Assembly (NCBI RefSeq): GCF_011752065.1
Contig: NZ_JAAIJY010000013.1
Coordinates: 1-64,000 of the forward strand
Length of the DNA: 64,000 nt
From: Actinomyces sp. ZJ308
GTDB lineage: Bacteria; Actinomycetota; Actinomycetes; Actinomycetales; Actinomycetaceae
Reading direction: 5' to 3'
How positions within the stretch are numbered: position 1 is the first letter of the stretch; each line of letters opens with the position of its first letter. This document shows positions 24,444 to 42,908 of the stretch, in pieces. The notes beneath the pieces are model-generated. The model saw only the letters and a program-made list of their open reading frames with translations. It ran no database searches and was not told the origin of the DNA. The translations under genes and the position numbers were made by a program.

Positions 24444-24518
24444 GACTGGGGCTCCTTCCCTGGTGCCGCCCTCCGACGGCGTCGTGTCGGCAACCGCGGG
24501 AGGCCGGTGTCGGCCGGC

Positions 24519-24788
24519 TCAGCCCTCTCGGACGTCGCGCTCGACGGCGTCGAGCGTGTAGTCCCCGGCCTCGTCAATGGCCTCGGCCAGGGCCGCGTCC
24601 TCGAGGCGGACGTCGGAGAGCACGGTGACGATGGACTGCCCGCCCTTGTTGAGCAGGACGGAGACGTTCTTGACGCCGTCGAGGGCCTCGAGCTCCTCGG
24701 TGACGTGGGCGACGCAGTGGCCGCAGGTGAGTCCGGAGACCTTGAGGGTGGTGGTGCGGTCGACGCCGTCGGCGGTGAACTCGGTCAT
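24519..24788 (-). CDS. copZ: Copper chaperone CopZ
   Basis: Small cytosolic heavy-metal-associated protein, 89 residues, that binds Cu(I) through Cys22 and Cys25 in SGLTCGHCVAHV and delivers it to CopA or CsoR. The HMA fold pattern (beta-alpha-beta-beta-alpha-beta) is consistent with TLKVSGLTCGHC, VTEELEAL-GVKNVSVLL and the ending EAGDYTLDAV. The ATG at 24788 has an aaggag site (cccaaggagttatag). It lies between csoR and copA on the same strand with gaps of about 75 to 90 bases. Confidence 0.93.
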   Translation of the reverse strand: MTEFTADGVDRTTTLKVSGLTCGHCVAHVTEELEALDGVKNVSVLLNKGGQSIVTVLSDVRLEDAALAEAIDEAGDYTLDAVERDVREG

Positions 24789-24876
24789 CTCTATAACTCC
24801 TTGGGAGGCGTGCGAGGAAAGCGGATGGAATGGAACGGGAAGGAGGTGGTTCGGCCGGGCGGCCGGACCGGGGCGG

Positions 24877-25158
24877 TCAGGACCGGACGAGCCGGGCGAT
24901 GGCGTCGGAGGCCTCACGGATCTTGGCCATGCCCTCCTCGTCGCCGGCCTGGGCGGCGTGCAGGACGCAGTGGCTCATGTGGTCCTCCAGCAGGCCGAGG
25001 CTGACGGCCTGAAGAGCCTTGGTGGCGGCGGAGATCTGTGTGAGGACATCGATGCAGTAGGTGTCCTCCTCGACCATGCGGGAGATGCCCCGCACCTGCC
25101 CCTCGATGCGGCGCAGGCGCTTGAGGTAGTCCTCCTTGGTCCCGGTGTATCCGGCCAT
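24877..25158 (-). CDS. csoR: Copper-sensing repressor CsoR
   Basis: All-helical DNA-binding repressor of copper export genes, 93 residues. The Cu(I) ligands are Cys35 (TYCIDVL), His60 and Cys64 (DHMSHC), the same spacing as the Mycobacterium tuberculosis CsoR trio Cys36/His61/Cys65. The start YTGTKEDYLKRLRRIEGQVRG is typical. The ATG at 25158 follows a ggaggag site. First gene of the copper operon; two operator-like palindromes lie 36-76 bases upstream, so it should repress its own operon until copper binds. Confidence 0.95.
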   Translation of the reverse strand: MAGYTGTKEDYLKRLRRIEGQVRGISRMVEEDTYCIDVLTQISAATKALQAVSLGLLEDHMSHCVLHAAQAGDEEGMAKIREASDAIARLVRS

Positions 25159-26666: not shown

Positions 26667-27434
26667 TCAGCGGTCGAGCCCCGTCCCCCGCGCCTCCGAG
26701 GGGCTGGGGGACGAGCTCGGGGTCGGATTGCTCGGGGCGCTGGGTGCACTGGCGGCCGGGATCGTGAAGGGGCTGTTGGAGGCGTACCCGTGCTTGAACG
26801 CCCACACCACGATCTCCAGGCGCGACGTCGTCCCCGTCTTGTGGAACAGGCCGGTGATGTGCGACTTGACCGTCGCCTCGGCAATGGCCAGCAGCGAGGA
26901 GATCTTGCGGTTCGAGGCGCCCTCGCACAGGAGGTGGAGCACATCGCGCTCCCGCTCCGAGAGGTGGACGCTGCCGTCCGCACCGCGCACGGAGGCCAGG
27001 GCGTAGTCGATGAGCCGCGTCGTCGGCGTCGGGGCCACGACCTTCGCCCCGGAGTGGACCGTGCGCACCGCCGCGATGATCTCCTCGGCCGGGGCGCTCT
27101 TGAGCAGGAAGCCGCTGGCGCCGGCCCCCAGCCCCTGGAGAAGGTCCTCGTCGGTATCGACGGTCGTCAGCAGGATGACCCGGGTCGACGGCGAGACGCG
27201 AAGCACCTCCCTGGTCATTTCCACGCCGTCCATGTTCTCCATGTGGACATCGGTAATGAGGACGTCGACCTGATGAGACTGAAGAAACCGCAGAACTGCG
27301 CGGGGTGAGCGTGCTGCGGTGAGGACAACGAGGTCCTCGACGTCGAAGAAATAGGACTCCAGATGGGCCAGGGCCATCGCGTCGTCGTCGACCAGGGCGA
27401 GGCCGACACGATCGGGAGAAATCTGGGAAGACAT
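26667..27434 (-). CDS. LuxR/NarL-type response regulator, likely controls the adjacent RiPP cluster
   Basis: Two-domain response regulator, 255 residues. Receiver: acidic pocket DDD at 16-18, phospho-acceptor Asp62 in LITDVHMENMDG, and Lys112 in LLKSAP. Output: NarL-type helix-turn-helix at about 160-225 (LSERERDVLHLLCEGASNRKI, ATVKSHITGLFHK). A 30-residue Ser/Pro tail follows. An aaggag site fixes the ATG at 27434. No histidine kinase is adjacent, so it is orphan here. It is divergent from the YcaO gene across a 266-base region with an inverted repeat, a layout that suits a pathway regulator; this role is inferred. Confidence 0.88.
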   Translation of the reverse strand: MSSQISPDRVGLALVDDDAMALAHLESYFFDVEDLVVLTAARSPRAVLRFLQSHQVDVLITDVHMENMDGVEMTREVLRVSPSTRVILLTTVDTDEDLLQGLGAGASGFLLKSAPAEEIIAAVRTVHSGAKVVAPTPTTRLIDYALASVRGADGSVHLSERERDVLHLLCEGASNRKISSLLAIAEATVKSHITGLFHKTGTTSRLEIVVWAFKHGYASNSPFTIPAASAPSAPSNPTPSSSPSPSEARGTGLDR

Positions 27435-27700
27435 GTGTCTCCTTGGGCAGATCTGTGCAGGCCGCGGTAGTGGGGGTCGCGGTCTGCTGGGAACAGTGAA
27501 CAAACTACCTGAAGAAAGGCGTTCACCGTGTAAACGCCCCCGAGACGCGCCCCGACGAAAGGACGGGTAGGACTATCCAAACAGCGGACCGATCGGTAGA
27601 TGAAAGGGCGATGTGAAGGCCTCGCGGCTTCGGGCAGGCTCTTCGCCAACGGCACTTCCCCCAAGTGTGCCTCCTCTGTCGTTCCCAGGAAGGAGGGTCC
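27435..27700. promoter_or_regulatory. Divergent control region of the RiPP cluster
   Basis: The region separates the response regulator from the YcaO gene. GGCGTT (27518-27523) and AACGCC (27533-27538) form an inverted repeat with 9-base spacing in an AT-richer context, a plausible site for the LuxR-type regulator. The ribosome site aaggagg at 27690-27696 belongs to the YcaO gene. Confidence 0.45.
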
Positions 27701-29065
27701 GTGTACCGCTCTGCGCTCATTGAGGGTGTGGCGCCATCACTGGCTCGCGCCGCGTCCCTCGAGTCGCCCTTCGGCCTGGTTTCCCGTTCCACCGAGCTGC
27801 CCCAGGCGGCCGGAGAGCCGGTCTTCGCGATCTGGACCGGTCTTCTGGGTGATCCATCTGAGGCGCTGAGGTCACAGCGCAGCTGGAATCACCGTGCCGA
27901 GGCGGGCAACTTCGACGGGGCCGGCGGGGCCATCGACGCCGATCGCGCCAGACACATCGCGATCGTGGAGACGATGGAACGCTACTCCAGCTGCTCATGG
28001 ACGGAGGAGGAGCTGGTGTGGGACACCCCCGCCGGTCTCGGCGAGGCCGCGATCGGACCGGAGCACTGGCCGGCATGCTCGGCCACCGAGCTGGCGGACC
28101 CCGACTGCGGGCTCATCGCATCGGACCCCCGCGTCCCGATGCGATGGGTGCGCGGCTGGTCCCTGACCCGGGGCCGGGAGGTCTTCGTCCCGGCCGTCCT
28201 GGTCTATCTCAACTTCCCGGTACGCACCCCCTCCGAGCAGTTCGTCAACCCCATCTCCACCGGCACGGCCGCGCACTCCGACCTGCGCGAGGCGGTCCTG
28301 GGCGGACTGCTCGAGGTCATCGAGCGCGACTCCATCGCCCTGACCTGGCTGCAGCGCCTGCGCCTGCCCGCGGTCGCCGTCGACCCCGACGCCCTGGGAG
28401 AGGCGGCCGCCGAGTACCACCGGGTCGGCACCTCCACCGAGCTGGCGACCCACCTGTTCGACGCCACCACCGACTACGGCGTCCCCACCCTCTACGCCGT
28501 CCAGACCTCCCAGGTCGATCCCGAGCTGGCCCAGGTCGTGGCCGCCACCTGCGACATCGACCCGCAGCGGGCGCTGGCCAAGATCTACCGCGAGCTCGCC
28601 TCCCTGCGCATCGCCCTGCGCAGCCACGCCCGCGGCCCGCGCGCCCAGGAGATCAAGGGTCAGGACCTCACCGTGGTCGGCGGCGCCCTGGCCGACGCCG
28701 ACCTGTCCATGCGCCACATCTTCGATTTCCTCCTGGAGGGTGAGCGGCCCGTCCACGCCCTGGGCGGCATCGGCACCCTGGGGGCGTCGTCGACCGGGAC
28801 TGACGCCGGCGACCCGCTTGAGCAGGTCGTCGCCAACCTGGAGCGGGCCGGCGCCGAGGCGATCGTCGTCGACATCACCACCGACGAGGCCCGCCAGGTC
28901 GGCATGCACGTCATCAAGGCCCTCATTCCGCAGGCCATGCCCCTGTCCTTCAGCCACCACGCCCGCTACCTGGCCACCCCCCGCCTCTACGAGGCGCCCC
29001 GGGCCATGGGCCTGACCGTCCACGACGAGGCCGGGATCAACCCCGTACGCCAGCCCTTCGCCTGA
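27701..29065 (+). CDS. YcaO-domain cyclodehydratase of the RiPP cluster
   Basis: ATP-dependent cyclodehydratase (YcaO) predicted to turn Cys, and possibly Ser/Thr, of the precursor into azolines. GTG start at 27701 with an aaggagg site; 454 residues. ATP/Mg motifs are in place: HIAIVETMERYS (Glu90, Glu93), then PISTGTAAHSDLREAVLGGL followed by LEVIERDS (Glu205, Glu208), the YcaO signature. The C terminus ends INPVRQPFA, a proline-bearing tail like the PxPxP-type ends of azoline-forming YcaO proteins. It needs a ThiF/E1-like partner, which the next two genes supply. First gene of a tightly packed run that reaches 37960. Confidence 0.92.
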   Translation: MYRSALIEGVAPSLARAASLESPFGLVSRSTELPQAAGEPVFAIWTGLLGDPSEALRSQRSWNHRAEAGNFDGAGGAIDADRARHIAIVETMERYSSCSWTEEELVWDTPAGLGEAAIGPEHWPACSATELADPDCGLIASDPRVPMRWVRGWSLTRGREVFVPAVLVYLNFPVRTPSEQFVNPISTGTAAHSDLREAVLGGLLEVIERDSIALTWLQRLRLPAVAVDPDALGEAAAEYHRVGTSTELATHLFDATTDYGVPTLYAVQTSQVDPELAQVVAATCDIDPQRALAKIYRELASLRIALRSHARGPRAQEIKGQDLTVVGGALADADLSMRHIFDFLLEGERPVHALGGIGTLGASSTGTDAGDPLEQVVANLERAGAEAIVVDITTDEARQVGMHVIKALIPQAMPLSFSHHARYLATPRLYEAPRAMGLTVHDEAGINPVRQPFA

Positions 29066-29119
29066 GCCATGTCACTGTCCACCACGCCGCCGACCGTCTC
29101 CCAGGAGCCCAGAACCACC

Positions 29120-29920
29120 ATGAGCACGACGCCGCCCGCACCCGCTGCGCAGCCGGTACAGCAGCCGGCACAGCAGGCCCCCTCGGGGCCGGTGACGGCC
29201 TACCTGCCCCAGGGCGGGTTCGCGCGCGCCGTCGCCGCGCGGCTCGCCGGGCCCGACGACGTCGTCGTACCGGTCGACCAGGGGCTGGTCAGCGCCTACG
29301 TCCCCTACGCCGACCGTGCCGTGCTCATCGCGGATCCCGACCAGACCGGTCTGCGCGAGGACCTCGACACCCTGTCCTTCACCCGGGGCATGCCCTCGCT
29401 CGGGCTGGAGCTCCTCCCCACCGAGCTGCGCTGCGGACCGCTCGTGGTCCCCGGCCGCAGCGCCTGCTACCGCTGCTACGACCGGCGCCGCCGCCAGCAC
29501 GGCTACCGCCCGCTGCCCCCGGAGGTGGCCGCCGAGCACGGCCCGCTGGAGCAGGGCTACGCCCACCACCACGTGGTCCTGGGAGCCGGACTCATCTCGC
29601 TGGCCCTCCAGACCCTCGACCGCCAGGAGCCGGCCACAGCGGGAGCCACCGGGACCGGCGCGGCCGACGCCGAGAGCGCCATCAACGACGCCGGGGCCGC
29701 CCCAGTCACCGCGGCCACCACAGCCACCACGGCCGCTGCGGAGCCTCCGGAGATCGGCGGCCGGGTGTGGACCATCGACCTCGTCTCCGGGATCACCACC
29801 TGCTCACCGACCGTGGCCGTGGACCGCTGCGAGACCTGCTCGGGCCGCTATGAGGGGCGCCGTGACGGCCTGCCCGCGCTCGCGGCCCTCCTGCCCGAGC
29901 GCCGAGAGGAGGTGGCCTGA
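29120..29920 (+). CDS. Small ThiF-like/cyclodehydratase partner protein with two CxxC pairs
   Basis: A 266-residue protein, N-terminal 25 residues Pro/Gln-rich. C116xxC119 (RSACYRCYDRRRRQHGYR) and C237xxC240 (DRCETCSGRYEGR) probably hold one structural zinc, as in E1-like partners of YcaO enzymes and the TIGR03882-type cyclodehydratase components of thiopeptide clusters. A Glu/Ala/Thr-rich insert lies between them. Start ATG at 29120 preferred to 29069, which lacks a ribosome site. It stops one base before the next gene. Likely helps present the leader or couple YcaO to its substrate. Called from motif and context; no catalytic activity is claimed. Confidence 0.72.
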   Translation: MSTTPPAPAAQPVQQPAQQAPSGPVTAYLPQGGFARAVAARLAGPDDVVVPVDQGLVSAYVPYADRAVLIADPDQTGLREDLDTLSFTRGMPSLGLELLPTELRCGPLVVPGRSACYRCYDRRRRQHGYRPLPPEVAAEHGPLEQGYAHHHVVLGAGLISLALQTLDRQEPATAGATGTGAADAESAINDAGAAPVTAATTATTAAAEPPEIGGRVWTIDLVSGITTCSPTVAVDRCETCSGRYEGRRDGLPALAALLPERREEVA

Positions 29921-29921
29921 G

Positions 29922-31703
29922 ATGGCCGGGGACTCCCTCATGCGCGCCGGCGACGTCGGCCGGGCCGCCCGCCGCGACCTGCAGTTCCGCATCCCCCGCA
30001 AGCCGGTGGTCCGCCTGGGTCTGCGCGCCCGGCCCGACGAGGGCGGCTGGATCGTCGACGGCGCCCGCAAGAGTCAGGTCCTGGGCGGGGCCTTCGCCCG
30101 CGAGCACATGGGCCCCCTGCTCGAGGCCTGCGACGGCACCCGCACCCTCGACGAGATCGGCGAGATCACAGGCATCGGCTCCCAGGCCGTCTTCGAGGCC
30201 GTCTCCCTGCTGTGGACCGGCGGCATCGTCGAGGAGGGCGACACCGAGCCCGCCCCCGGCGAGCCGGCCCCCGAGCTGGCGCGCCTCCTGTCGCGCCTGG
30301 GCGACTCCACCGGGGTCAACGACTCCTGGCAGGACGCCGCCCGCCGCCTGGCCGCCGCCCGGGTCGCCGTCGTCGGGGACAACGAGCTGGCCGGCGAGAT
30401 GGTCGCGGCCCTGGAGCCCACGCTGCCCGATGTCCGGCTCGACGGCGCGCCCCGCCGGGGGGACACGCTCGTCGTCCTGGTCGAGACGATCGACTCCGCC
30501 GACCGCTCCGAGGAGGTGGCGCGCCGGTGCCGCGAGGCCGGGATCCCGCTGCTGCGGGTGCGCGCCGAGCAGGAGGCGGTCACGGTCGGCCCCTACGTCG
30601 ACGAGAGCTTCTCGCCCTGTCTGGCCTGCGCGAGCGCCGACGAGCCCGAGCTCGGCCCCCGCCCCGACGCCGCCCGCCGCGACATCGTCATCGGCCTGGC
30701 CGCCCGGGCCGTGGCCGCCCTCATCGCCCGCGCCACCGTCACCCACCTGCCCGGGGACGCCCGGCGCACGGACCTGGCCACCTTCACCTACTCCGACCAT
30801 CCGGTCGTCTCCCGCCCCGGCTGCCCCGTCTGCTCGGTCGCAGGGCAGGGCGAGAACCCGGTGCCGGTGGCGCCGTCGGCCCCCGTGGGAGCCCGCTACG
30901 AGCAGTCCGTGGCCATCCCGCCGGCGGCCTTCGTGGACTCCAAGGGCCACCAGCAGCACTACAAGCCCTCCAACCTGCGCCTCCAGCGCGAGTTCCGCGA
31001 CTGGCCGGTCTGCCCGCGCACGCCGCTGCCGCCCGCCGACCTGGGCCGCCTCGACCAGCCCTGGCCGGTCGTCCACCCGATCAGCGAGGACAGCAGCGAG
31101 CCCGACGTCGCCCATCCCACCCTGAGTGAGCTCGCCACGATCCTGGCGCTGTCGGTGGGCGTGCGCGAGCCGCTGGGCCCTGAGCCCGCCGGGCCCGCCG
31201 GCCAGGAGACAGCCGACGCCGCCCGGACCCCGCTGAGCGCCAAGCTGCGCCGCTGGACGGCCGCCGGCGGCAACATCGGCTCGGTGACCGCCTACGTCCT
31301 GGTCCCCGAGACGGGGGCGCAGGAGGGAGCCGCTGAGGGGCGGCCGGCCCCGGGCACCTACGTCTACATCGAGCGCGACCACGCCCTGGCGCTCATCGGC
31401 CCCGCCCCCGGCGAGAGGGCCGAATCGGAGGGCACGGTGCCGGGCGGCGTCGGCGCCCGGATCGTCCTGACCGGCAACGTCGACAAGGTGGCCCGCAAGT
31501 ACTTCTCCTTCGCCCTGCGGATCGCGGTCCAGGACTGCGGCTGCTCCTTCGAGGTCATCCGCCTCGTCGCCGACGCCCTGGGGGTGCCGCTGCGTGCCCG
31601 GGCCCGCTGGGACGAGCAGCGGATCGCCCGGGCGCTGGGCACCGACCCGGCCCGCGAACCGGCCTGCATCGTCGTCGACCTGGGAGGCAGCCGTGCGCAC
31701 TGA
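29922..31703 (+). CDS. Fusion of E1-like/RRE cyclodehydratase partner and SagB-type azoline dehydrogenase
   Basis: A 593-residue protein. Residues 20-105 (FRIPRKPVVRLGLRARPDEG, LLEACDGTRTLDEIGEITG) look like a peptide-recognition winged helix (RRE); 145-310 is an E1/ThiF-like core with zinc-type pairs C233xxC236 and C301xxC304. From about 340 to the end it reads like a SagB-type nitroreductase: KLRRWTAAGGNIGSVTAYVLV, YVYIERDHALALIG, then a helix-rich end (KYFSFALRIAVQDCGCSFEV, ALGVPLRARARWDEQRIARALG). So one chain appears to bind the leader for YcaO and bear a flavin domain for oxidising azolines to azoles. It overlaps the next gene by 11 bases. Confidence 0.78.
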   Translation: MAGDSLMRAGDVGRAARRDLQFRIPRKPVVRLGLRARPDEGGWIVDGARKSQVLGGAFAREHMGPLLEACDGTRTLDEIGEITGIGSQAVFEAVSLLWTGGIVEEGDTEPAPGEPAPELARLLSRLGDSTGVNDSWQDAARRLAAARVAVVGDNELAGEMVAALEPTLPDVRLDGAPRRGDTLVVLVETIDSADRSEEVARRCREAGIPLLRVRAEQEAVTVGPYVDESFSPCLACASADEPELGPRPDAARRDIVIGLAARAVAALIARATVTHLPGDARRTDLATFTYSDHPVVSRPGCPVCSVAGQGENPVPVAPSAPVGARYEQSVAIPPAAFVDSKGHQQHYKPSNLRLQREFRDWPVCPRTPLPPADLGRLDQPWPVVHPISEDSSEPDVAHPTLSELATILALSVGVREPLGPEPAGPAGQETADAARTPLSAKLRRWTAAGGNIGSVTAYVLVPETGAQEGAAEGRPAPGTYVYIERDHALALIGPAPGERAESEGTVPGGVGARIVLTGNVDKVARKYFSFALRIAVQDCGCSFEVIRLVADALGVPLRARARWDEQRIARALGTDPAREPACIVVDLGGSRAH

Positions 31704-32433
31704 CTTCGAGACGCTGCGCGAGCTCATCAGCGGCTTCTCCGACGGATCCTCCGCCCGAGCGGGTGAGCCGACCTCCGACGGCCTGGCCGCGCGCCGTCCG
31801 CGGCCGCCGCTGGCCTGCCAGGTGCCGGATGCGCTTGGACCCGGCCCCCAGGCGGCCTACCCCCATGACCTGCACCAGACCTTCGAGCGCCGCTCGTCAT
31901 CCACCAGCTACGGCACCGAGCCGCTGGAGGCCGAGTCCCTGATGGCCATGGTCCGCGACGCCCTGGCCGACGACGCGCGCACCTGGGGCCAGGACGCGGC
32001 GGCCTGCCCCCTGGAGCCCTTCGTCCTCCTTCTGCGCCCGCGCGGCGCCGACCCCGGCATCTACCGGGTGAGGCTCGACGGCGTCGACCTCGTTCGTCCC
32101 CTGCCGGATGCGGAGGTCATCGAGGGCATGACGGTGCAGAAGGAGTTCGCCCGCGCCGGCGCCATCGTCTCGGTGGCCGCCAACCTCGATCAGGCCGACG
32201 CCTGGGGCGGGGCGGCCGGCTACCGCTTCACCATGAGCCGTAGCGCGGCCCTCATCTACTCCGTCCATCTGCGCGCCGTCGCCCGCTCCCTGGTGGGGAC
32301 GGTCTTCGCCGGCTTCGCCACCTCCGCGGTGCGCCACCTGCTGGACTCCGACGGCGTGAGCCGCCACCAGATGTTCGCCGTCACCGTGGCCGGCCCTGTG
32401 GCCGGCCCGGTCGCCGGTGCGGCGGACGGTTAG
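31693..32433 (+). CDS. SagB-type FMN nitroreductase-like azoline dehydrogenase
   Basis: A 246-residue protein from a GTG inside the end of the preceding gene (ribosome site gggaggc). Nitroreductase fold motifs: HQTFERRSSSTSYGTEPLEAE (FMN-binding RRS start), GIYRVRLDGVDLVRPLP, and a C-terminal helix pair (ALIYSVHLRAVARSLVGTVF, ATSAVRHLLDSDGVSRHQMF) close to the family pattern. Predicted to oxidise thiazolines to thiazoles with FMN. Having this besides the SagB-like half of the previous protein is unusual; one may be a structural partner, since SagB-type enzymes dimerise. Ends 204 bases before the precursor gene. Confidence 0.8.
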   Translation: MRTDFETLRELISGFSDGSSARAGEPTSDGLAARRPRPPLACQVPDALGPGPQAAYPHDLHQTFERRSSSTSYGTEPLEAESLMAMVRDALADDARTWGQDAAACPLEPFVLLLRPRGADPGIYRVRLDGVDLVRPLPDAEVIEGMTVQKEFARAGAIVSVAANLDQADAWGGAAGYRFTMSRSAALIYSVHLRAVARSLVGTVFAGFATSAVRHLLDSDGVSRHQMFAVTVAGPVAGPVAGAADG

Positions 32434-32544
32434 CCCCGGTTCACCCGCGCGCCGCCGGCTCATCGGCAGCGAGAGCGGTCCGGAAACGACCCAGAACTGC
32501 ATACCGCATCAGAGAGTTCCACAGACCACCCCGTTCGCGGGGTT

Positions 32545-32572
32545 TGGGGTCCGGTCCCGGCAGACCGGACCC
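32545..32572 (+). promoter_or_regulatory. Perfect hairpin in the leader of the precursor gene
   Basis: GGGGTCCGGTC (32545-32555) is the exact reverse complement of 32562-32572, with loop CCGGCA. A second palindrome GGGCCCGATCGGGCCC follows at 32575-32590. They lie 47-92 bases before the precursor ATG and could end transcripts from upstream, attenuate read-through, or mark a processed 5' end. Confidence 0.7.
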
Positions 32573-32636
32573 CCAGGGCCCGATCGGGCCCTGCTCCTGC
32601 CCGACAACATGTGTAAGAGAAGGAGGTGAACAGCAT

Positions 32637-32840
32637 ATGACGAACAGCGCGATTGATCTCACCCTCGCCGACAGTGACTTCGGCGTCGAGGAGCTCCCCG
32701 AGGGCAACGCCCTGGGTTGCGCCTTCAGCAGCGCGAGCGCGTCCTGTCCGGCCAGCGCGGCCTCGGCCTCGTGCCCGTCCAGCGCCGCGTCGGCCTCGTG
32801 CCCGTCCTGTGCGGCCAGCGCGTCGACGACGTCCTGCTGA
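32637..32840 (+). CDS. RiPP precursor peptide with Ser/Cys/Ala repeat core
   Basis: A 67-residue peptide behind the strongest ribosome site of the cluster (aggaggtgaa, 32621-32630). The leader, residues 1 to about 27, is acidic (DLTLADSDFGVEELPEGNALG) and recalls thiopeptide leaders. The core, about Cys28 to Cys67, has 15 Ser, 13 Ala, 6 Cys, 3 Pro, 2 Thr and 1 Phe, and no charge. From residue 33 the unit ASASCPxxA runs three times (33-41, 42-50, 51-59) and a fourth, altered unit ASASTTSC ends the chain. Each repeat puts Ser directly before Cys, as in the N-terminal part of the thiostrepton core. Expected changes: thiazoles at Cys, dehydroalanine at Ser. Exact cleavage site is a guess. Confidence 0.85.
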   Translation: MTNSAIDLTLADSDFGVEELPEGNALGCAFSSASASCPASAASASCPSSAASASCPSCAASASTTSC

Positions 32841-32852
32841 CGACCCCACGGT

Positions 32853-32884
32853 GGCGGGCAGGAGACCGGGGTCTCCTGCCCGCC
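32853..32884 (+). terminator. Perfect 14-bp hairpin after the precursor gene
   Basis: GGCGGGCAGGAGAC (32853-32866) pairs exactly with 32871-32884 around the tetraloop CGGG, starting 12 bases after the precursor stop. No T-run follows, so it may be a partial terminator or a 3' stabiliser that lets the precursor be made in excess over the enzymes downstream. Confidence 0.78.
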
Positions 32885-32937
32885 ATCAACGGCGTCCGGA
32901 TCCCCGCGAACCCACTTGAGGGAGCCATGACCCCACG

Positions 32938-34152
32938 ATGAGCACGGTGATGAGTACGGCGATGAGCAGCACCAGCGCCCCGACGAGCCCGGTCCCGCGC
33001 CTGCGCCGCGGCGTGAGTCTGATCGTCGGGATGGACAACCAGCCGATGCTGTTCGACTCCGACTCGGGCAAGTACCACCGGCTCGGGGCGGCCGCGGCCT
33101 TCATCGTGGGTCAGTTCGACGGGGTGCGCTCCCTGCCGACCATCATCGAGGAGCTGCCCCAGGACATCGACGAGGCCGGCGCCAGGCGCATCACGAGCCT
33201 GGTCGACAACCTGCGCGACAAGAGCCTCCTGGCGGGCGGCGAGCCCGCCGCCACCGCGCCCACGGCGCCCGCGGCCCCGGCACGCACCAGACGCACCCAC
33301 GGGCGCCACACCGCCCAGCCCCGTCAGGCCCGCCACCTCAAGGTCGAGCAGCCGCGCCGCAGCGGAGGGTGGTGGTTGCCCCGCATCATTATCGCCCGCA
33401 AGTACCACCGGATCGTCGCCCCCGTCGTCACCCTGCTCCAGCGCCTCCCGGCCCGCGCGCTCAGCTGGCTCTTCCTGGCGCTGGCGGCCTGCGGGTACGC
33501 GGCCGGCGCCATGGCGCTGAGCTCCCTGGCCGGGGGCCCCCGCCCGGGCGCCCTCGTCGTGGTGACGGCGGTGGCGATCCAGCTGGTGAGCATCCTGCTG
33601 CACGAGTCCTGGCACGCCATCGTCGCCGGCTACCTGGGCACCCCCATCCGCGGGCTGGGGGTGGCGCTCATGTTCTGGGTGATCCCCATCGCCTACGTCG
33701 ACCGCACCGACTCCTACCGGGTGCGCTCCCGAAGCGGGCTGACCATGCTGGCCCTGGCCGGCATCTTCTCCGACGGCGTCGTGTGCGGCCTGGAGGCGGC
33801 CGTCGCCTGGGCCTCCTCGGGAACGGTGCGCCAGGTGGCCCTGACCCTGTGCGCCTTCCAGCTCACGATGCTCGTCACCAACCTCAACCCCCTCACCCAG
33901 TCCGACGGCGTCGCCGCGGCCGAGGCGGCCACCGGCTCGGTCAACCTGCGCGGGCGCTCCATGTTCGTTCTGCGCTGCGTCCTGTCCCGCCGGCCCCTGC
34001 CGCCGGGACTGGCCGTCCTGCGGCCCGCGGTGCGCTGGGGCTACTTCGTCTACGGGCTTCTGTGCAGTCTCCTCGGCCTCCTGGCCTTCGTGATGAGCAT
34101 TGTATGGATAGGCTACTGGCTGTACGTCCTCGTGAAAGGTTTCCTCCTATGA
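32938..34152 (+). CDS. Membrane M50 (S2P-like) metalloprotease with N-terminal RRE domain
   Basis: A 404-residue protein. Residues 24-98 (GVSLIVGMDNQPMLFDSDSG, YHRLGAAAAFIVGQFDGVRS) look like a PqqD-type RiPP recognition element. A Pro/Arg-rich linker leads to a multi-helix membrane part with the zinc motif HESWH at 222-226 and the third-ligand motif NLNPLTQSDG at 315-324, the S2P/M50 pair. It probably grips the leader and cuts the modified precursor at or in the membrane, perhaps coupled to export. The family also includes proteins of lantibiotic-like systems, so leader removal is inferred. Its end overlaps the LanB start (ATGA at 34149-34152). Confidence 0.85.
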   Translation: MSTVMSTAMSSTSAPTSPVPRLRRGVSLIVGMDNQPMLFDSDSGKYHRLGAAAAFIVGQFDGVRSLPTIIEELPQDIDEAGARRITSLVDNLRDKSLLAGGEPAATAPTAPAAPARTRRTHGRHTAQPRQARHLKVEQPRRSGGWWLPRIIIARKYHRIVAPVVTLLQRLPARALSWLFLALAACGYAAGAMALSSLAGGPRPGALVVVTAVAIQLVSILLHESWHAIVAGYLGTPIRGLGVALMFWVIPIAYVDRTDSYRVRSRSGLTMLALAGIFSDGVVCGLEAAVAWASSGTVRQVALTLCAFQLTMLVTNLNPLTQSDGVAAAEAATGSVNLRGRSMFVLRCVLSRRPLPPGLAVLRPAVRWGYFVYGLLCSLLGLLAFVMSIVWIGYWLYVLVKGFLL

Positions 34153-36788
34153 CGCAGCCGGTTCTGTCCCGTGCCGGTGCCTCCCCATCCCGACAGCCAC
34201 AGCCGCAGCCCACATCCGCCGTGACCCCCGGGGAGCCCGTCCCATCCGCTCCGTCCCCCGCCGCACCGCAGACGGTGACGGATCCCGCCCCGGAGCCCCC
34301 GGCCCTGGCCCAGCCCGCCGTGGCCCTTCCGACCCTCGTGCGCCTGGGAGGACTGCCCGTGCGGGCCGTTCCCGAGACCAGCGCCGCGGTGACCGGCACC
34401 CTGGAGTACCTGCGCCGGCTCGACGAGGTGCTCGACGGCGCCGCGAACCAGCTGCTCGACCCGCTCTACGAGCTCATCCCCACCCTGGCCAAGACCGAGC
34501 GCCGCCTGGTCCTGCGCGCCAAGCGCCGGGTCTTCCAGGGGCGCGCCACCGGCCTGACCGCAGAGGTGCTGAAGGCCCTGCCGGGCGAGGTCGGTGCCCT
34601 GCTGGAGCGCTGGGACGCCCTGGTGGCCCGCAAGGAGGAGACCCGCGGGCGCCTGGCCGTTCTCGTCGACGTCGACCTGGACCGCAGCCGCGAGCTGCTG
34701 GCGGCCGGCCTCGACGAGCCCGGCTACCAGGAGGCCCTGGCGATCGCCGCCCCGGCCCTCGTGTCCACCCTGGCCTCCCGCGGCCGCAGGCTGGATGACC
34801 CCCGCGTGCTGCGCACCCTCTACACCCTGGCCACCCGGGCGGCCCTCAAGACCAGCCCCTTCTCGGGGCTGACCACCGTGAACGAGGCCGGACAGCCCTC
34901 CGCCGGGCGCAGTCACCGGATGGTGGCGACCCACCTGGCCTACCGCATCCTGAGCGCCACCGCTCAGGACCTGGCCCCCGACGGCGCCCTCTACCTCGAG
35001 CCCGCCCCCGTGCGCCGGGCCGTCAGCGCCCCCGGCCGGGGCCCGGCCGGCGCCTACGGGCAGTTCCCGCCCGGCGAGGACGAGGCGGAGATGCTGACCG
35101 TCGTCGGCGAGCACGAGTACGGCAACGGGATGGTCTTCCGCCAGGAGGCCGTCCAGCCCGCCCGCTGGCTCCAGGAGACCCACGACGCCCTGACCGGCGG
35201 CGGCATGCACGCCGTGCTCAGCGTGCGCGACGCCTGCGAGCGCGTGGGCGGCGCCGACCCGCGCCTGCGCCTGGAGCGGCTGCTGGCCTCGGGCGCCGTC
35301 GTGCCGCGCGTGCCCTGGTACCGCGGGGAGAACCCCTTCCCGCTGCTGGCCGCCACGCTCTCACCGGACCAGCAGCGCCAGTGGGGCAAGGACCTGGCCT
35401 GGCTGGCCCGGCTCGACGAGGTCATCGCCGCGGCCGACGGGCCCACGCGCGCCGAGCTCCTCAACCGCACGGTGCGCCTGGCCGAGCGCGTCTTCCCCGC
35501 CGGCGAGCTCGGTGAGCGGCCCAGCGGCTTCCTCTACGAGGACCGCGAGTCCGCCCGCAGCTGGCCCGATCCGCTCGAGGACGCCCCCTTCTCCCAGGAC
35601 GTGCAGACCCTGGCCGAGCTCGCCGACCCCTGGGTGGCCCGCTCCCACATCTATGACCTCATGGTGGCCCGGTTCGTCTCACTGTTCGGAAACGGTGGGG
35701 TGTGCAAGGACCCGCTCGCCTTCTTCATGACTCTGGGCCACGCCCCCGACGGCGACGAGGAGATGCTGCGCGCCGCCGGGCTCGACTACGCCGCCGGGCC
35801 CGATACGGAGCGCGCCGCCCTGCCCGGCGGGCTGTCCGGATCTCCGCGGCACCTGGGCGCCTTCCTCCAGCCGGTGGCCCCCAGCGCCCGGACCTACGCC
35901 GCCGGCGGGGGACTCACGGTCGTCAACGCCTTCACCAACGCCAACGGTTCCCTTCAGGCCCGCTTCCACCGGCTCCTGGGTGCCGGCTTCCGGGAGCGCC
36001 TGGCCTCGCGGATCCGCACCGCCTGGGGCACCGAGCGGGTGCTGGAGATCCAGGCCAGCACCGAGTGCAACACCGGCCAGGCCGTCTCCTGCGGGCTCCT
36101 GCCGCCGCTGGGCCTGCCCGGCGAGCCGGGGGCGCCGGACACGGTCCCCCTCAGCTCCCTGCGGCTCGTCCACGATCCGGCCACGAGCACCCTGTTCCTG
36201 GCCGACGACGCCGGGCCCGTGGGCCTGGCCTACCTGGGCCTGACGCCCCAGTACCTCCTGGGCGGCTACCTGTCCTGGCTGGTGCTGCTGAGCGACCCGT
36301 GGTCCCGGCTGCCCCCGTTCGCCGACCACTGGACCAGCCGGCGTCGGGACCTGAAGGGCCCCCTGCCCGACGAGGTCCTGCACTCCGAGCGGGCCGTGGC
36401 CGGCCGTCTGGTGACCCGCCGCGAGTCCTGGACCTTCCCGGCCGCCCAGATCGCCCCGCTCATGGACCGCGACCTGACGACGACCCTGCTGCACATGGAT
36501 GACCTGCGCAAGCAGTGGGGCATACCGGTGGAGGTGTTCGTCCACCAGCACATGCCCTCCCAGGGGGCCACCTTCGACCAGCACAAGCCCCGCTACGTGG
36601 ACCTGTCCTCACCGGTCTCGCTGCTGGCGCTGCGGGGCTGGATCGATCCCGACGCCGCGCACATCAGCTTCGTCGAGGCCCTTCCGGCCCGCGGCGAGGC
36701 CCTGGGGCTCACGCAGGACGGCGAGCCGACGGTGGCCGAGTACCTGGTGGGACTCCAGTGGCCCAAGAACCTGGGAGGCATGGCATGA
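34149..36788 (+). CDS. LanB-type dehydratase, glutamylation domain protein
   Basis: An 879-residue class I lantibiotic dehydratase N-terminal domain. It should use glutamyl-tRNA to glutamylate Ser/Thr of the precursor. After a Pro-rich N-terminal 55 residues, family-like blocks follow: TRAALKTSPFSGLTTV (a hallmark TSPFS), GGGLTVVNAFTNANGSLQARFHRLLG, EIQASTECNTGQAVSC, and RRESWTFPAAQIAPL near the C terminus with HQHMPSQGATFDQHKPRYVDL. The elimination domain is not in this chain but in the next gene, the split form known from thiopeptide and goadsporin clusters. Both ends overlap neighbours by 4 bases (ATGA), so translation is probably coupled. Confidence 0.9.
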   Translation: MTQPVLSRAGASPSRQPQPQPTSAVTPGEPVPSAPSPAAPQTVTDPAPEPPALAQPAVALPTLVRLGGLPVRAVPETSAAVTGTLEYLRRLDEVLDGAANQLLDPLYELIPTLAKTERRLVLRAKRRVFQGRATGLTAEVLKALPGEVGALLERWDALVARKEETRGRLAVLVDVDLDRSRELLAAGLDEPGYQEALAIAAPALVSTLASRGRRLDDPRVLRTLYTLATRAALKTSPFSGLTTVNEAGQPSAGRSHRMVATHLAYRILSATAQDLAPDGALYLEPAPVRRAVSAPGRGPAGAYGQFPPGEDEAEMLTVVGEHEYGNGMVFRQEAVQPARWLQETHDALTGGGMHAVLSVRDACERVGGADPRLRLERLLASGAVVPRVPWYRGENPFPLLAATLSPDQQRQWGKDLAWLARLDEVIAAADGPTRAELLNRTVRLAERVFPAGELGERPSGFLYEDRESARSWPDPLEDAPFSQDVQTLAELADPWVARSHIYDLMVARFVSLFGNGGVCKDPLAFFMTLGHAPDGDEEMLRAAGLDYAAGPDTERAALPGGLSGSPRHLGAFLQPVAPSARTYAAGGGLTVVNAFTNANGSLQARFHRLLGAGFRERLASRIRTAWGTERVLEIQASTECNTGQAVSCGLLPPLGLPGEPGAPDTVPLSSLRLVHDPATSTLFLADDAGPVGLAYLGLTPQYLLGGYLSWLVLLSDPWSRLPPFADHWTSRRRDLKGPLPDEVLHSERAVAGRLVTRRESWTFPAAQIAPLMDRDLTTTLLHMDDLRKQWGIPVEVFVHQHMPSQGATFDQHKPRYVDLSSPVSLLALRGWIDPDAAHISFVEALPARGEALGLTQDGEPTVAEYLVGLQWPKNLGGMA

Positions 36789-37960
36789 GTACGCCCGACG
36801 AACCCCAGTCCAGCCGGCGCGAGCAGCGCAACCAGCCCAGCCGGCTCACCCGCTCCCGGCGCCTGCGCTGGCTCGGCGGGCGCTCCCGGGCGGGCGAGCA
36901 GGCTGAACAGTCCGGGCCGGGCGGGCAGACCGGCCCGGACAGTCGGGGAGGGGGCGCCACCCCGCAGGTGGGGGGCTCGATCCCGGGGATCCAGCCCCTG
37001 GAGATGGCGGCCGCCGACTTCGGCAGCCTGCGCGCCCAGCACAGCTCGGTGCGTCAACGCGGATCGGCGCTGGTCAACCAGGCCGAGGACGTCGGCTGGC
37101 TGTACGCGCGGATCTACTGTGCCGGCGGGGACGACACCGACGAGCTGCTGCCCGAGATCGCCCAGTGGCTGGCCCGGGCCCGCGGGCAGTGGGACATCCG
37201 CTCGGCGCACTTCCTGCGCTTCGTCGACCTGCGCGGGCATCACATCCGTCTGCGGCTCAAGGCCGTCCAGGGCGTCCTGGACGAGGCCTACGCGAGCATG
37301 CGCGAGCTCGACGCCGTCGCCCGGCGGGCCGAGGTGCGTACGGTCGAGCGGCTCGTCTCCGACCCCATGACCGGGGGGATCGGTGCCAGCCGGCCCGGGA
37401 TCGCCTTCGGCGTCTACGGCCCCGAGTACGACAAGTACGGGGGCGTGGCCGGCGTGGAGGAGGCCGAGCGCCACTTCTACGTCTCCAGCCGGTGGTGTCT
37501 GGACCACCAGATCTGGCAGATCCCGCGCTCGGTGCCACGGGCGGCCCTGGCGGCTCGGTTCCTGGCCCTGGCGGCGCGTAGCGCGCCGCTGCCCGAGGCC
37601 GAGCTGCTCTCCGCTCACCTGCGGATGTGGGGCTCGCGCCTGCCCGCGCACCTGCGCGACGGCAGCGCCCTGGGGCCGATCGTCCAGCAGCTGCTGGAGG
37701 TCATCGAGTTCCAGTTCGACGAGATCCCGTCCTGGAGCCAGGCGGCCGGGGCCGTCGGCGAGCTGGCCGACGACGCCGGGCGCGCCATCGGCGTCATGGG
37801 CGCGGGTACCGGTGGGCGCCGGGCCCTGGACCTGCTGCACATCGACGTCAACCGGCTCGGGCTCAACCCGGCCGAGGAGTGCATCGCCGGGCTGTGCGCC
37901 CGCCAGCTCCTGGCCGGAGGCGCCGTACCCCCGGCCCAGGCCTCGGCCGCCGCCGGGTAG
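36785..37960 (+). CDS. Thiopeptide-type biosynthesis domain protein (LanB elimination domain or pyridine-forming cyclase)
   Basis: A 391-residue protein of the TIGR03891/SpaB C-terminal family. The first 85 residues are low complexity. Then GWLYARIYCAGGDDTDELLP, HFLRFVDLRGHHIRLRLKA, GVYGPEYDKYGGVAGVEEAE and RHFYVSSRWCLDHQ match the family blocks. In split LanB systems one such protein removes glutamate to leave dehydroalanine; in thiopeptides a second, related protein joins two dehydroalanines into a pyridine. Only one is present here, so elimination is the safer call, which favours a linear or otherwise closed product. It ends the run; family D and C repeats follow. Confidence 0.87.
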   Translation: MSTPDEPQSSRREQRNQPSRLTRSRRLRWLGGRSRAGEQAEQSGPGGQTGPDSRGGGATPQVGGSIPGIQPLEMAAADFGSLRAQHSSVRQRGSALVNQAEDVGWLYARIYCAGGDDTDELLPEIAQWLARARGQWDIRSAHFLRFVDLRGHHIRLRLKAVQGVLDEAYASMRELDAVARRAEVRTVERLVSDPMTGGIGASRPGIAFGVYGPEYDKYGGVAGVEEAERHFYVSSRWCLDHQIWQIPRSVPRAALAARFLALAARSAPLPEAELLSAHLRMWGSRLPAHLRDGSALGPIVQQLLEVIEFQFDEIPSWSQAAGAVGELADDAGRAIGVMGAGTGGRRALDLLHIDVNRLGLNPAEECIAGLCARQLLAGGAVPPAQASAAAG

Positions 37961-38270: not shown

Positions 38271-39968
38271 TCAGGCTCGGCGGTAGGTGGTGGTGATGTC
38301 GCCCTGACGGCCATCTGTCAGGACCGCTCCGGCCTCCCTGAGGCGTCTGAGTGCGTACATCACCTGGCGCGCGGACAGCCGTGTGGCTTTGACGATCTGC
38401 TGACGCGTGCGGGGCCCGTTCTCCAGACAGGCCCAGACGGCAGCCGCATTGGTGGACAGGGTGGAGATCTCGCTGGGAATGGTGTCCTCGACGTCGGGGG
38501 TCGAGCGGGCCTCGTCGGAGACCAAGGCATAGGACGTGGCACCGCGCTGTCCTCGGGCCTCGGCATAGCCCCGGCTCACCAGCTCCTGGAGGTGACGGCG
38601 GGCTTGCTGTGAGTCACCGCCGAAGCGACGGCGGTAGGAGGAGTTCGTCCACGATCTTCCATGCCGCATCTCGACGAGTGCATGGCGCTGCTCGACGCTG
38701 AGACCGTGTGTCTCAAGGTCGGACAGCCAGCTGAGGTCTTCAGGTGAGAGAAGCGCGCTGCGGGGGAGCAGGGCCGTGAAGCGTACTCCGGTGTCCTGAA
38801 AGCGGACGGACTCCATGTCCGCATCGCGCAAGGCGCGCCGGACCTCCCGGATCCCGGAGCCGAGGCCTTCGATCACCCGCCGTCCCTCATAGTCCGTGGC
38901 GAAGGTGCAGATGGTGTAGAGGTGCTCGTTCACCGCGGACTTCCCATCGCGTGTACCGAGCTGGTCCACGCTCAACCCCCACAGACCTCCTGGACTGGAG
39001 ATGATGAGACGGTCGCGCAGCAGGCGGATCTCAACCCCTTTCGAGAGGGCGGGCTCGGAGAGGTCTCGGTGGACGAGCGCGTTGGCGATGAGCTCGCGAA
39101 CCGCGATGAGTGGGAACTCGTGGACGTCTCGGCCATGCCCGTCATCTCCGAACCGGATGCGGGTCTGCGCGGTGCGTGCGACCCAGTCGACGGCGTCAGT
39201 GAGCATCTGAGGCAGAGGGCCCGCGATCGTGAGTCGATCTGTTGCTCTGACTCCGTCGTTCGTGTCGGTGACGGCGGCTGTGATGGACAGGCCGGGAAAG
39301 TGTCTCTGCGGGTAACGCCCCAGCGCATACAGTCCTGCCAGGGTCGTCTCTCCGTCGTCGGTGAGAACGTTTAGGTTGAGAAGAACCTCGGCGTCGGACT
39401 GGCCTGTGAGCGCGGTGGTGCCGGTACGTACCGACCGAAGGAAGCGCTGGACCAGGTTGTTGTCGAGGCTCTTCGCGGTGGTGCCGGGGACGGCGACTGA
39501 GTCCTCGCGAGGACGCCGGTGCCGGAGAAGCAGCTGTTGCTCCTCCTGCTGAGACATGCGGTAGTCGCCGTCGTACTGGCGCAGGTAGGCCGATCCCGTC
39601 TCCTTCCACCGGCATGGCTTGCTGTTGACCGGGACTTCCTGCACGTTGGCGGCGACGACGGTCTTCCCGTCAATGGCGATGGCACGTGGATCCACAGCGA
39701 TCTCGCTCGAAAAACCTTGCCGGGCCTGCGAAACGAGGGCCTGCATGAGGTCGTGCGGATGCTGAGCTCCGACGACGGATACCGGGTTCTCACTGACGCC
39801 GAGGAGGATGGTGCCGCCTCCGGGAAGGTTCGCGAAGGCGGAGAGCGTCGGACCGAGGGCGGTAGGGGAGTACTCGGAGAAGGTCTTCGCCTCGATCTCC
39901 AGGCAGTCGCCGCCCTCCAGCTCCAGGCGGGCGAGCGCCTCCGTGAGGTCATCCAGATCAACAATCAC
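38271..39968 (-). CDS. AlbA-domain/ATP-binding regulator with C-terminal winged helices
   Basis: A 565-residue protein of the COG2865 type. The N-terminal 130 residues (CLEIEAKTFSEYSPTALGPT, LSAFANLPGGGTILLGVSEN) form a Schlafen-AlbA_2 domain; residues 260-400 contain a GHKL-like ATPase (RELIANALVHRDLSE, IISSPGGLW); the rest has helix-turn-helix segments (RTRQQIVKATRLSARQVMYALRRLREAGAV). Such proteins are common near mobile or defence-like loci, where they act as regulators or nucleic-acid-binding proteins. GC is lower than in flanking genes, and it lies between 152-bp direct repeats, which suggests insertion. The array of short repeats before its ATG may be its own operator. Confidence 0.8.
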   Translation of the reverse strand: MIVDLDDLTEALARLELEGGDCLEIEAKTFSEYSPTALGPTLSAFANLPGGGTILLGVSENPVSVVGAQHPHDLMQALVSQARQGFSSEIAVDPRAIAIDGKTVVAANVQEVPVNSKPCRWKETGSAYLRQYDGDYRMSQQEEQQLLLRHRRPREDSVAVPGTTAKSLDNNLVQRFLRSVRTGTTALTGQSDAEVLLNLNVLTDDGETTLAGLYALGRYPQRHFPGLSITAAVTDTNDGVRATDRLTIAGPLPQMLTDAVDWVARTAQTRIRFGDDGHGRDVHEFPLIAVRELIANALVHRDLSEPALSKGVEIRLLRDRLIISSPGGLWGLSVDQLGTRDGKSAVNEHLYTICTFATDYEGRRVIEGLGSGIREVRRALRDADMESVRFQDTGVRFTALLPRSALLSPEDLSWLSDLETHGLSVEQRHALVEMRHGRSWTNSSYRRRFGGDSQQARRHLQELVSRGYAEARGQRGATSYALVSDEARSTPDVEDTIPSEISTLSTNAAAVWACLENGPRTRQQIVKATRLSARQVMYALRRLREAGAVLTDGRQGDITTTYRRA

Positions 39969-40282: not shown

Positions 40283-41737
40283 TCAGTCGTCCAGGTGGGC
40301 GACGAGCTCGGCGGCCAGGCCCGTGTAGGTGGCGGGCGTGAGCGCCAGCAGGCGCGCCTCGACGTCGTCGGGCATGCCCAGCCCGGAGATGAACTCGCGC
40401 ATGCCCTCACCCGTGACCTTCTTGCCGCGGGTGAGCTCCTTGAGCCGCTCGTAGGGGTCGGCCATGCCGGTGGCCCCGGCGACGGCGGCCGCCCGCATGG
40501 CCTGCTGGACCGGCTCGCCGAGCACCTCCCAGGTCGCCTCCAGGTCCTCCTCCAGGCGAGCGCGGTCGACGTCGAGCCCGGCCAGGCCGCGGCGGATGTT
40601 GTCGATGGCCAGCAGTGAGTGCCCCAGGGCCACGCCCGCGTTGCGCTGCGTGGTGGAGTCGGTGAGGTCCCGCTGGAGGCGGGAGGTGACGAGGGTGGCC
40701 GCCAGCGTGTCCAGCAGCGAGCAGGAGATCTCCAGGTTGGCCTCGCCGTTCTCGAAGCGGATCGGGTTGACCTTGTGCGGCATGGTCGACGAGCCGGTGG
40801 AGCCCTGCGCGCTCAGGCGCTGGTGGAAGTAGCCCAGCGAGATGTAGGTCCACACGTCGGTGGCCAGGTTGTGGGCGATCCGGTTGAAGCGGGCGACGTC
40901 GGAGTAGAGCTCGGCCTGCCAGTCGTGGGACTCGATCTGGGTGGTCAGCGGGTTCCAGGTCAGGCCCAGGTGCTCCACGAAGCCGCGGCCCACGGCCTGC
41001 CAGTCGGCGCCCGGCACCGAGACGACGTGCGCGCCGAAGGTGCCGGTGGCGCCGTTGATCTTGCCCAGGTACTCGGTGGCCTCGACGCGGCGCACCTGGC
41101 GGCGCAGCCGGTGGGCCAGGACCGCCAGCTCCTTGCCGAGCGTGGTGGGCGTGGCCGGCTGGCCGTGCGTGCGGGCCAGCATGGCGGCGTCGGCGTACTC
41201 GTGGGCCATGGCGGCCAGGTCCTCGACCAGGCCGCGGGCGGCCGGCAGCCAGACCTGTTCGACGGCGGCGCGGATGGTCAGGGCGTAGGAGAGGTTGTTG
41301 ATGTCCTCGCTGGTGCAGAAGATGTGGACGATCTCGCCGACCTCGGGCAGCACGGTGGGGCCGCCGTCGGCGCCGACGACGCCGGGGGCCTGGGCGGCCG
41401 CTGCCAGGCGCCGCTTGAGCAGGTACTCGACGGCCTTGACGTCGTGGCGGGTCTCGGCCTCGATGGCGCCGAGCTCGGCGATCGCCTCGGCCCCGAAGTC
41501 CTCGACGACGCCGCGCAGGTAGGCCTGCTCCGACTCGCTCAGGCGGGGGGCGCCGGGCAGGACGCCGCCGTCGGTGAGGTGGATGAGCCACTCGACCTCG
41601 ACCTGCAGGCGGGCCCGGTTGAGGGCGGCCTCGGAGAGGTGGTTGACCAGTGGTGCGGCGACGGCGCGGTAGCGGCCGTCCAGGGGGCCCAGGGCGATGG
41701 CGGGGGAGACGGTGGAGAGATCGACCATGCCGCTCAT
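40283..41737 (-). CDS. purB: Adenylosuccinate lyase
   Basis: Cleaves SAICAR and adenylosuccinate with release of fumarate, in purine synthesis. 484 residues. Fumarase/aspartase-superfamily signature GSSTMPHKVNPIRFENGEANL is present, with the HDVKAVEYLLK, TSEDINNLSYAL and ARTHGQPATPTTLGKELA catalytic blocks; the N terminus LSTVSPAIALGPLDGRYR is typical of the longer bacterial PurB type. A short Ala-rich insert lies at about residues 110-130. The ATG at 41737 overlaps the stop of the small membrane protein upstream by ATGA, so the two are probably translated together; an ATG at 41728 is possible. Confidence 0.96.
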   Translation of the reverse strand: MSGMVDLSTVSPAIALGPLDGRYRAVAAPLVNHLSEAALNRARLQVEVEWLIHLTDGGVLPGAPRLSESEQAYLRGVVEDFGAEAIAELGAIEAETRHDVKAVEYLLKRRLAAAAQAPGVVGADGGPTVLPEVGEIVHIFCTSEDINNLSYALTIRAAVEQVWLPAARGLVEDLAAMAHEYADAAMLARTHGQPATPTTLGKELAVLAHRLRRQVRRVEATEYLGKINGATGTFGAHVVSVPGADWQAVGRGFVEHLGLTWNPLTTQIESHDWQAELYSDVARFNRIAHNLATDVWTYISLGYFHQRLSAQGSTGSSTMPHKVNPIRFENGEANLEISCSLLDTLAATLVTSRLQRDLTDSTTQRNAGVALGHSLLAIDNIRRGLAGLDVDRARLEEDLEATWEVLGEPVQQAMRAAAVAGATGMADPYERLKELTRGKKVTGEGMREFISGLGMPDDVEARLLALTPATYTGLAAELVAHLDD

Positions 41738-42825: not shown

Positions 42826-42908
42826 GGCGGGCACCTCACTGAGCAGTTCACGACGGCGGACGTAGCCAGATTAAACCGGTGACCTGGCCGGAGACTGAAT
42901 ACGGGTAC

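Follow-up and report, generated by a model that had tools for sequence, protein, structure and literature searches.

The stretch analysed here, called the window, is 64,000 nucleotides long and comes from Actinomyces sp. ZJ308 (NZ_JAAIJY010000013.1; contig C2 of a 3.28-Mb genome), which is related to oral Actinomyces species; the named relatives recovered were Actinomyces naeslundii, A. oris, A. johnsonii and Actinomyces sp. oral taxon 170. Between positions 26667 and 37960 it carries a complete, intact operon for a ribosomally synthesised and post-translationally modified peptide (RiPP), lying opposite a LuxR-type response regulator. Coordinates are window positions; loci of relatives are coded L and genomes G. 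The genes follow in the order YcaO, E1a, E1-SagB, SagB2, precursor, M50, LanB-N and LanB-C (Table 1), and neighbours overlap or stand a few bases apart except around the precursor gene. A sequence-only reading had listed a YcaO, E1-like partners, SagB types, a split LanB, a protein joining a RiPP recognition element (RRE) to an M50 protease, a precursor and a regulator, and domain matches and family profiles found every one of them where it had been placed. Some boundaries were mended: the E1-SagB fusion runs from 29922, the precursor from 32637, and YcaO probably from 27701, a start preceded by AAGGAGG.

Table 1. Features of the cluster and its precursor region, with the match or signal behind each assignment
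Feature	Position	Strand	Evidence
LuxR-family (NarL-type) response regulator, divergent	26667..27434	-	Response_reg 79.9 bits, GerE 56 bits
YcaO cyclodehydratase, SagD type, discrete, 466 aa	27665..29065	+	TIGR03604 414 bits (cut-off 219), PF02624 216 bits
E1/ThiF-like protein (E1a) with CxxC...CxxC	29069..29920	+	TIGR03882 35 bits, slightly below 36.9 cut-off
RRE-E1-SagB fusion	29922..31703	+	TIGR03882 50.9 bits (N-terminal half); TIGR03605 43 bits (C-terminal half; cut-off 78.4)
Second SagB/nitroreductase-like protein (SagB2)	31693..32433	+	Family profile A3 vs PDB 3eo7, E 2.8e-6
Three adjacent hairpins upstream of precursor gene	32528..32593	+	Fold of 32515-32610: -54.3 kcal/mol, z -4.0
Strong ribosome-binding site AAGGAGGTGA	32620..32629	+	Sequence
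Precursor, 67 aa	32637..32840	+	NF033482 36.1 bits, cut-off 25
17-bp hairpin directly past precursor stop codon	32850..32887	+	Fold of 32838-32895: -40.8 kcal/mol, z -5.9
PqqD-like RRE + M50-type intramembrane metalloprotease (HESWH), putative leader peptidase	32938..34152	+	PF05402 23.7 bits (cut-off 23.4)
LanB-N, putative tRNA-dependent glutamylation protein, goadsporin type	34149..36788	+	Family profile A1 vs PDB 9jhq, E 9e-69
LanB-C, putative glutamate elimination protein	36785..37960	+	PF14028 93 bits, TIGR03891 58 bits

A YcaO and an E1-like partner thus stand beside a Ser/Thr/Cys-rich precursor, the combination by which thiazole/oxazole-modified microcins (TOMMs) and linear azole-containing peptides are recognised, and this YcaO is the only one matched in the host genome. 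The family profile of E1a found TruD (E 1e-7) and LynD (E 3e-5) in the PDB, and no RRE match was seen in this protein; its motif count was left unused, because automatic start choice shortened 4 of the 24 rows and the row of L033 was over-extended. For the fusion protein, the profile led from the N-terminal half to TruD/MusD and from the C-terminal half to the nitroreductases 3eo7 and CyaGox/ThcOx. Profile and structure model both match TruD/LynD, MccB/McbB and SagB-type nitroreductase folds; since the mean predicted local distance difference test score of the model was 69.6, it served for domain assignment alone. The K-Y pair in the SagB part is present in all 24 full-length copies (L013, at a contig end, excluded). 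The catalytic Lys-Tyr pair of SagB, the catalytic residues of NisB and the azoline-forming mechanism are taken here as general background. Neither Pfam nor NCBIfam gave a row for SagB2 at E<=0.01, and the protein was recognised through its family profile only; of the two halves of the tandem nitroreductase 3eo7, that profile fits the C-terminal one, and the E1-SagB fusion best fits the N-terminal one. The two SagB-like parts may be separated halves of one dehydrogenase.

LanB-N was likewise without a row in either database at E<=0.01. Its alignment with 9jhq spans nearly the whole profile, and the only further PDB row was 6ec7 (E 6e-27), which we take to be TbtB. The chain 9jhq is named as a goadsporin biosynthetic protein and, by name and length, appears to be GodF. 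The profile of LanB-C matched MibB (E 3e-13) as well as MadB and NisB, and the motifs GHHxRxR, YxPExxKYG and HxxxNRxG are kept in all 25 copies. Against pyridine synthases, the same profile gave no row for TbtD or PbtD at E<=5 and one for 7cww (TsrL) at 0.017, while in the fold comparison pyridine-synthase folds and NisB fitted about equally well. The NCBIfam pyridine-synthase model NF045556 gave no row for the window LanB-C at E<=0.01 and no match anywhere in the host genome at E<=1e-5. Because of this, and because the host genome holds a single PF14028 match, a pyridine macrocycle made by the known route is unlikely. Where a pyridine forms, the leader is set free as an amide.

Matches to NF045556 occur in 4 of the 49 Actinomyces genomes sampled, all under the curated cut-off; three of the four (G003, G009 and G012) also have a copy of the cluster described here, with the match on a different contig or about 590 kb distant. 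Separate LanB/YcaO clusters of Actinomycetaceae were seen at L083, L085, L086 and L087, with precursors ending in ...FGSTCSSSSSSSCSSTCTSCCTSTSSCATA or similar. In L083, L085 and L087 the LanB-C-like protein matches NF045556 at 68-81 bits (cut-off 325), and by sequence these three, of which L085 and L087 are in Actinomyces, are probably thiopeptide clusters. Another cluster, L084, has two Ser/Cys-rich precursor-like open reading frames (ORFs; e.g. ...WCSCSTSSCCGCSSSSCGSTTSTSCSCGSTSSCA) near YcaO, LanB and M50-like matches.

Between SagB2 and LanB-N, the RRE-M50 protein keeps its HExxH in 25 of 25 copies. It scores 80 bits with NF041824, the model of the daptide protease, whose cut-off is 300; that enzyme is an M50-type intramembrane metalloprotease too, whereas the window protein is fused to a PqqD-like RRE.

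The window precursor reads MTNSAIDLTLADSDFGVEELPEGNALG followed by CAFSSASAS CPASAASAS CPSSAASAS CPSCAASAS TTSC, that is, with the boundary assumed, a leader ending in GNALG and a core of 40 residues, made up of four nonapeptide units and a final TTSC. The core holds six Cys, 15 Ser and no Ile. In the 22 window-type Actinomyces precursors, all of whose genes are preceded by GGAGGTGAA, cores of 31-43 residues repeat in tandem a nonapeptide with the consensus C-P-x-[S/C]-A-A-[S/C]-A-S, and the 58- and 67-residue peptides are exactly one nonapeptide apart. Cutting the cores mechanically every nine residues gave 84 units, a few irregular peptides being out of register. At position 1 there are 80 Cys and 4 Thr, at position 4 there are 52 Cys and 32 Ser, at position 7 there are 61 Ser, 22 Cys and one Thr, and at position 9 there are 83 Ser and one Ala. 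Where Ser and Cys replace each other, at positions 4 and 7, one heterocyclisable residue would be exchanged for another. Ser directly precedes C-P at 59 of 60 sites in 29 Actinomyces precursors, and the A-S-C-P motif is common to other families: among 15 of their 27 precursor-like ORFs (from L076, L077, L078 and L082), Ser precedes C-P in 15 and ASCP occurs in 14, and SCP is also present, judged by eye, in the remaining 12 (L079-L081). An Ala-Dha-thiazole-Pro module, Dha being dehydroalanine, may therewith be the conserved part. All nine sister precursors scanned lie above the NF033482 cut-off, and precursors of this cluster family match the model over its full length with up to 76 bits.

The same gene order was found in 25 copies of the cluster, carried by 24 of the 49 Actinomyces genomes, the copy at L013 lacking its first part at a contig end. 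LanB-N homologues are 41-97% identical to the window protein (own genome excluded), and the eight-gene order is identical across all 24 fetched loci, L013 being partial; because the loci were located via LanB-N, the information lies in the remaining seven genes keeping their order. Precursors matching NF033482 were detected in 23 of the 49 genomes, each among the 24 with LanB-N, and in the 24th (G017) the precursor was seen directly (L020). At family level the LanB-N profile matched 28 of 213 genomes at E<=1e-10, with G034, G058, G116 and G205 matching weakly and in the first quarter only. At E<=1e-20 it matched 6 of 396 genomes of the order, five of them Actinomyces, and 11 of 394 of the class, the window's own included and G608, G748 and G879 again weak and confined to the first quarter. 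The seven full matches beyond the family all keep the order of the seven enzyme genes and have three or four precursor-like ORFs, counted by eye, between SagB2 and M50; five of these genomes, of 8-9 Mb, belong to one family. NF033482 itself matched 10 of 394 genomes at class level, among them G594 and G824, which are without a LanB-N match.

In 34 of 34 gene comparisons of the window with four relatives, a set that left out the E1a and precursor genes of L010, dN/dS was 0.08-0.38, and ratios this low throughout indicate that the pathway is being kept. That the cluster is more than a chance assembly is borne out by shared order in 24 same-genus genomes (one partial) and seven outside the family as well as by selection. 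L028, L029 and L030 represent a distant Actinomyces subfamily, with LanB-N identity of about 40%; each of these clusters has four or five precursor matches, and G042 carries both subfamilies. In L016 (A. oris S64C, strain of G022; 10001-12642) the public LanB-N sequence lies in two overlapping frames, through a frameshift or an assembly error; the longer piece was used, with the sequence unaltered.

We consider it quite probable, from the genes present, that the product is a linear RiPP with thiazoles, possibly oxazoles, and dehydroalanines. The pathway that we infer, in its reactions, modified positions, cleavage point, target and role, would begin with binding of the conserved leader (IDLTLADSDFGVEELPEGNALG) by the RRE of the E1-SagB fusion. 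YcaO and both E1-like proteins would cyclise core Cys and perhaps some Ser, and the SagB pair would oxidise the azolines to azoles. LanB-N would glutamylate selected Ser from Glu-tRNA and LanB-C would eliminate the glutamate to leave Dha, the best candidate for a Dha followed by a thiazole being the Ser ahead of each Cys in A-S-C-P. The RRE-M50 protease would then cut off the leader at the membrane, after or near GNALG. With a cut directly after GNALG, the unmodified 40-residue core would have a monoisotopic mass of 3505.35, which six thiazoles would lower to about 3385.2 and four Dha more to about 3313.2. A likely role would be that of an antibacterial or signalling peptide, controlled by the adjacent LuxR-type regulator.

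A true thiopeptide would result if LanB-C both eliminated glutamate and performed the [4+2] cyclisation, or if an enzyme diverged beyond detection cyclised the peptide. The precursor exceeds the cut-off of an NCBI model named 'thiocillin family', LanB-C falls in TIGR03891, and it fits the folds of pyridine synthases about as well as that of NisB. However, the sequence profiles of LanB-C favour elimination domains, LanB-N is closer to the goadsporin protein, and the candidate was set back by the pyridine synthase going undetected both in the window LanB-C and in the host genome. As for the model, precursors of this cluster family match NF033482 end to end, so that the label by itself does not imply thiocillin chemistry. 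We regard a thiopeptide as unlikely; the linear azole/dehydroalanine peptide is much likelier, because there are one YcaO, one LanB-C and no detectable pyridine synthase.

It is also conceivable, but in our judgement very improbable, that the product carries azoles only, like the polyazole microcin B17, and that the LanB proteins act on few or no residues or on another peptide. That the azole module is separable is suggested by its occurrence without an annotated LanB, in an incomplete gene table, on a plasmid of Streptomyces sp. NBC_01462. Yet in the Actinomyces copies, found via LanB-N, LanB-C adjoins LanB-N in 25 of 25, both are under purifying selection, and the Ser ahead of C-P is nearly invariant. 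That plasmid locus (L100, 11980-19444) holds YcaO, annotated as two pieces, a leader-binding protein, an E1-SagB-like fusion (28% identity) and a nitroreductase (25%), then GNAT and ATP-binding cassette (ABC) genes. Free Cys thiols might instead trap Dha as (methyl)lanthionines, for which the six Cys and 15 Ser of the window core would offer partners; this we find scarcely credible, as YcaO and SagB proteins of the same operon would use up the Cys, 9 of the 15 other-family precursors counted have a single Cys in their last 30 residues, and no LanC row appeared among the ten proteins scanned. A dehydrazole was rejected as well, with no DUF4135 row among the same ten.

The linear azole/dehydroalanine peptide finds its closest counterpart in goadsporin, from Streptomyces sp. 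TP-A0584. There, azoles are made by a cyclodehydratase and a flavin dehydrogenase, and Dha by the split LanB GodF/GodG (PMC5303826); the window has a split LanB with a GodF-like glutamylation protein. The goadsporin cyclodehydratase is fused (PMC4603692), in contrast to the discrete YcaO and the E1 domains in two other proteins here. Goadsporin also has the peptidase-ABC transporter GodB, the acetyltransferase GodH and a 19-residue core (PMC5303826), whereas neither a GNAT acetyltransferase nor a peptidase-ABC transporter was found among the ten cluster proteins scanned. In the present clusters E1 and SagB form one protein and another SagB is encoded, the position expected for GodB is taken by the RRE-M50 protease, and cores are nonapeptide repeats of 31-43 residues. 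By sequence, then, the cluster would work like goadsporin but lies outside the goadsporin group by layout, and its precursor belongs to the NF033482 family. Thiopeptides of the thiomuracin, GE2270 and lactazole types share the set of YcaO, E1, SagB and split LanB and differ in having a pyridine synthase; NF033482, a precursor model only, implies thiocillin-like thiopeptides by its name, but no such synthase was detected with this cluster. Coryneazolisins, an in silico TOMM class, combine YcaO with LanB-like dehydratases without a [4+2] enzyme, as here, but have two D proteins and a core with Ile (PMC4603692), against one genomic YcaO and an Ile-free window core. Dehydrazoles unite azoles and Dha in one RiPP, as proposed here, but use a LanM-type (DUF4135) dehydratase and a nitrile-hydratase-like leader (PMC10676384) in place of a split LanB.

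Azole formation with Ser dehydration, the chemistry first suggested for the cluster, remains its best reading, and its layout is indeed unlike both goadsporin and thiopeptides in the discrete YcaO, the RRE-E1-SagB fusion, the second SagB and the RRE-M50 protease. The choice between the two, which had been left undecided, now leans to the goadsporin side, given the undetected pyridine synthase and the goadsporin-like LanB-N. The cluster is not fully new: its precursor exceeds the NF033482 cut-off, it recurs across actinobacteria, and a 2021 YcaO survey points to YcaO proteins beside NF033482 'thiocillin-like' precursors, uncharacterised in the part of that survey available (PMC8442711). A 2015 TOMM survey covers goadsporin and coryneazolisins, and its main text names Actinomyces once, for an A. 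odontolyticus strain among the thermoacidophisins (PMC4603692). A 2021 study of the human aerodigestive microbiome reported 55 gene clusters in 20 Actinomyces genomes, including strain F0386, the origin of L015, with 31 RiPP clusters enriched in gingiva; 18 of 18 isolates tested inhibited Rhodococcus corynebacterioides and two-thirds inhibited Micrococcus luteus (PMC8549736). In the literature searched, outside which lay many subscription papers and all supplements, no characterised product of the cluster was found, and none of six core peptide strings matched a paper.

Tentatively, thiopeptides and goadsporin may have this cluster as their counterpart in a third RiPP class, one that joins azoles with split-LanB Dha and is spread over actinobacterial families. 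Its marks would be the asymmetric E1/SagB pair, an RRE-guided intramembrane protease and one Dha-thiazole-Pro module (A-S-C-P), multiplied in oral-related Actinomyces into tandem nonapeptides that lengthen or shorten one full unit at a time. If the proposed chemistry is true, about half of the sampled Actinomyces species genomes (24/49), several from oral commensals, hold an uncharacterised azole/Dha peptide pathway, and a database name, thiocillin family, directs chemists toward the wrong scaffold. Since sister clusters of other actinobacterial families have the A-S-C-P core, reconstituting a single member would provide an annotation for all of them. Natural variants with three or four repeats and the Ser/Cys swaps form a ready substrate series for the YcaO/LanB choice between azole and Dha at Ser.

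Two structured stretches flank the precursor gene, and the comparison stretch directly before the upstream hairpins (32434-32520) had a z of -0.3. In a consensus fold of 11 loci, upstream hairpins two and three recur, each with one pair changed on both sides, the first hairpin takes an alternative pairing, and the downstream hairpin keeps all 17 pairs, two with changes on both sides; over the whole 593-column fold the covariation term was small (-1.37 kcal/mol). Since the hairpins have no T-run, they were read as mRNA-processing or attenuation elements, through which they may set the dose of precursor. A consensus scan for promoters returned no promoter-like site, and a terminator scan returned one terminator-like site, as expected by chance.

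The divergent LuxR-family gene is probably the regulator of the cluster, which it adjoins in 20 of 21 window-type loci (window excluded), the 21st, L013, ending with its contig. It was not found in L028 and lies only several kb off in L029 and L030. Its earlier description as an orphan is plausible, as no histidine kinase domain was found among the window proteins scanned, which are part of the window's genes. The proteins scanned near the window cluster included no recognisable ABC transporter; genes of this kind lie next to the cluster in L076, L079 and L082 and in L030, an Actinomyces locus, and in the scanned flank of L018 the opposite strand encodes two binding-protein-dependent permeases. 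Downstream, a Schlafen/AlbA-2 type protein (38271-39968) adjoins the cluster and has a relative in 7 of the 24 fetched loci. Further along, at 41734-42834, are two small membrane-protein-like ORFs without a Pfam match, alike by eye, and upstream, at 21579-25158, lies what is by content a copper-type operon, with a P-type ATPase carrying an HMA domain, an HMA protein and a metal-sensitive repressor.
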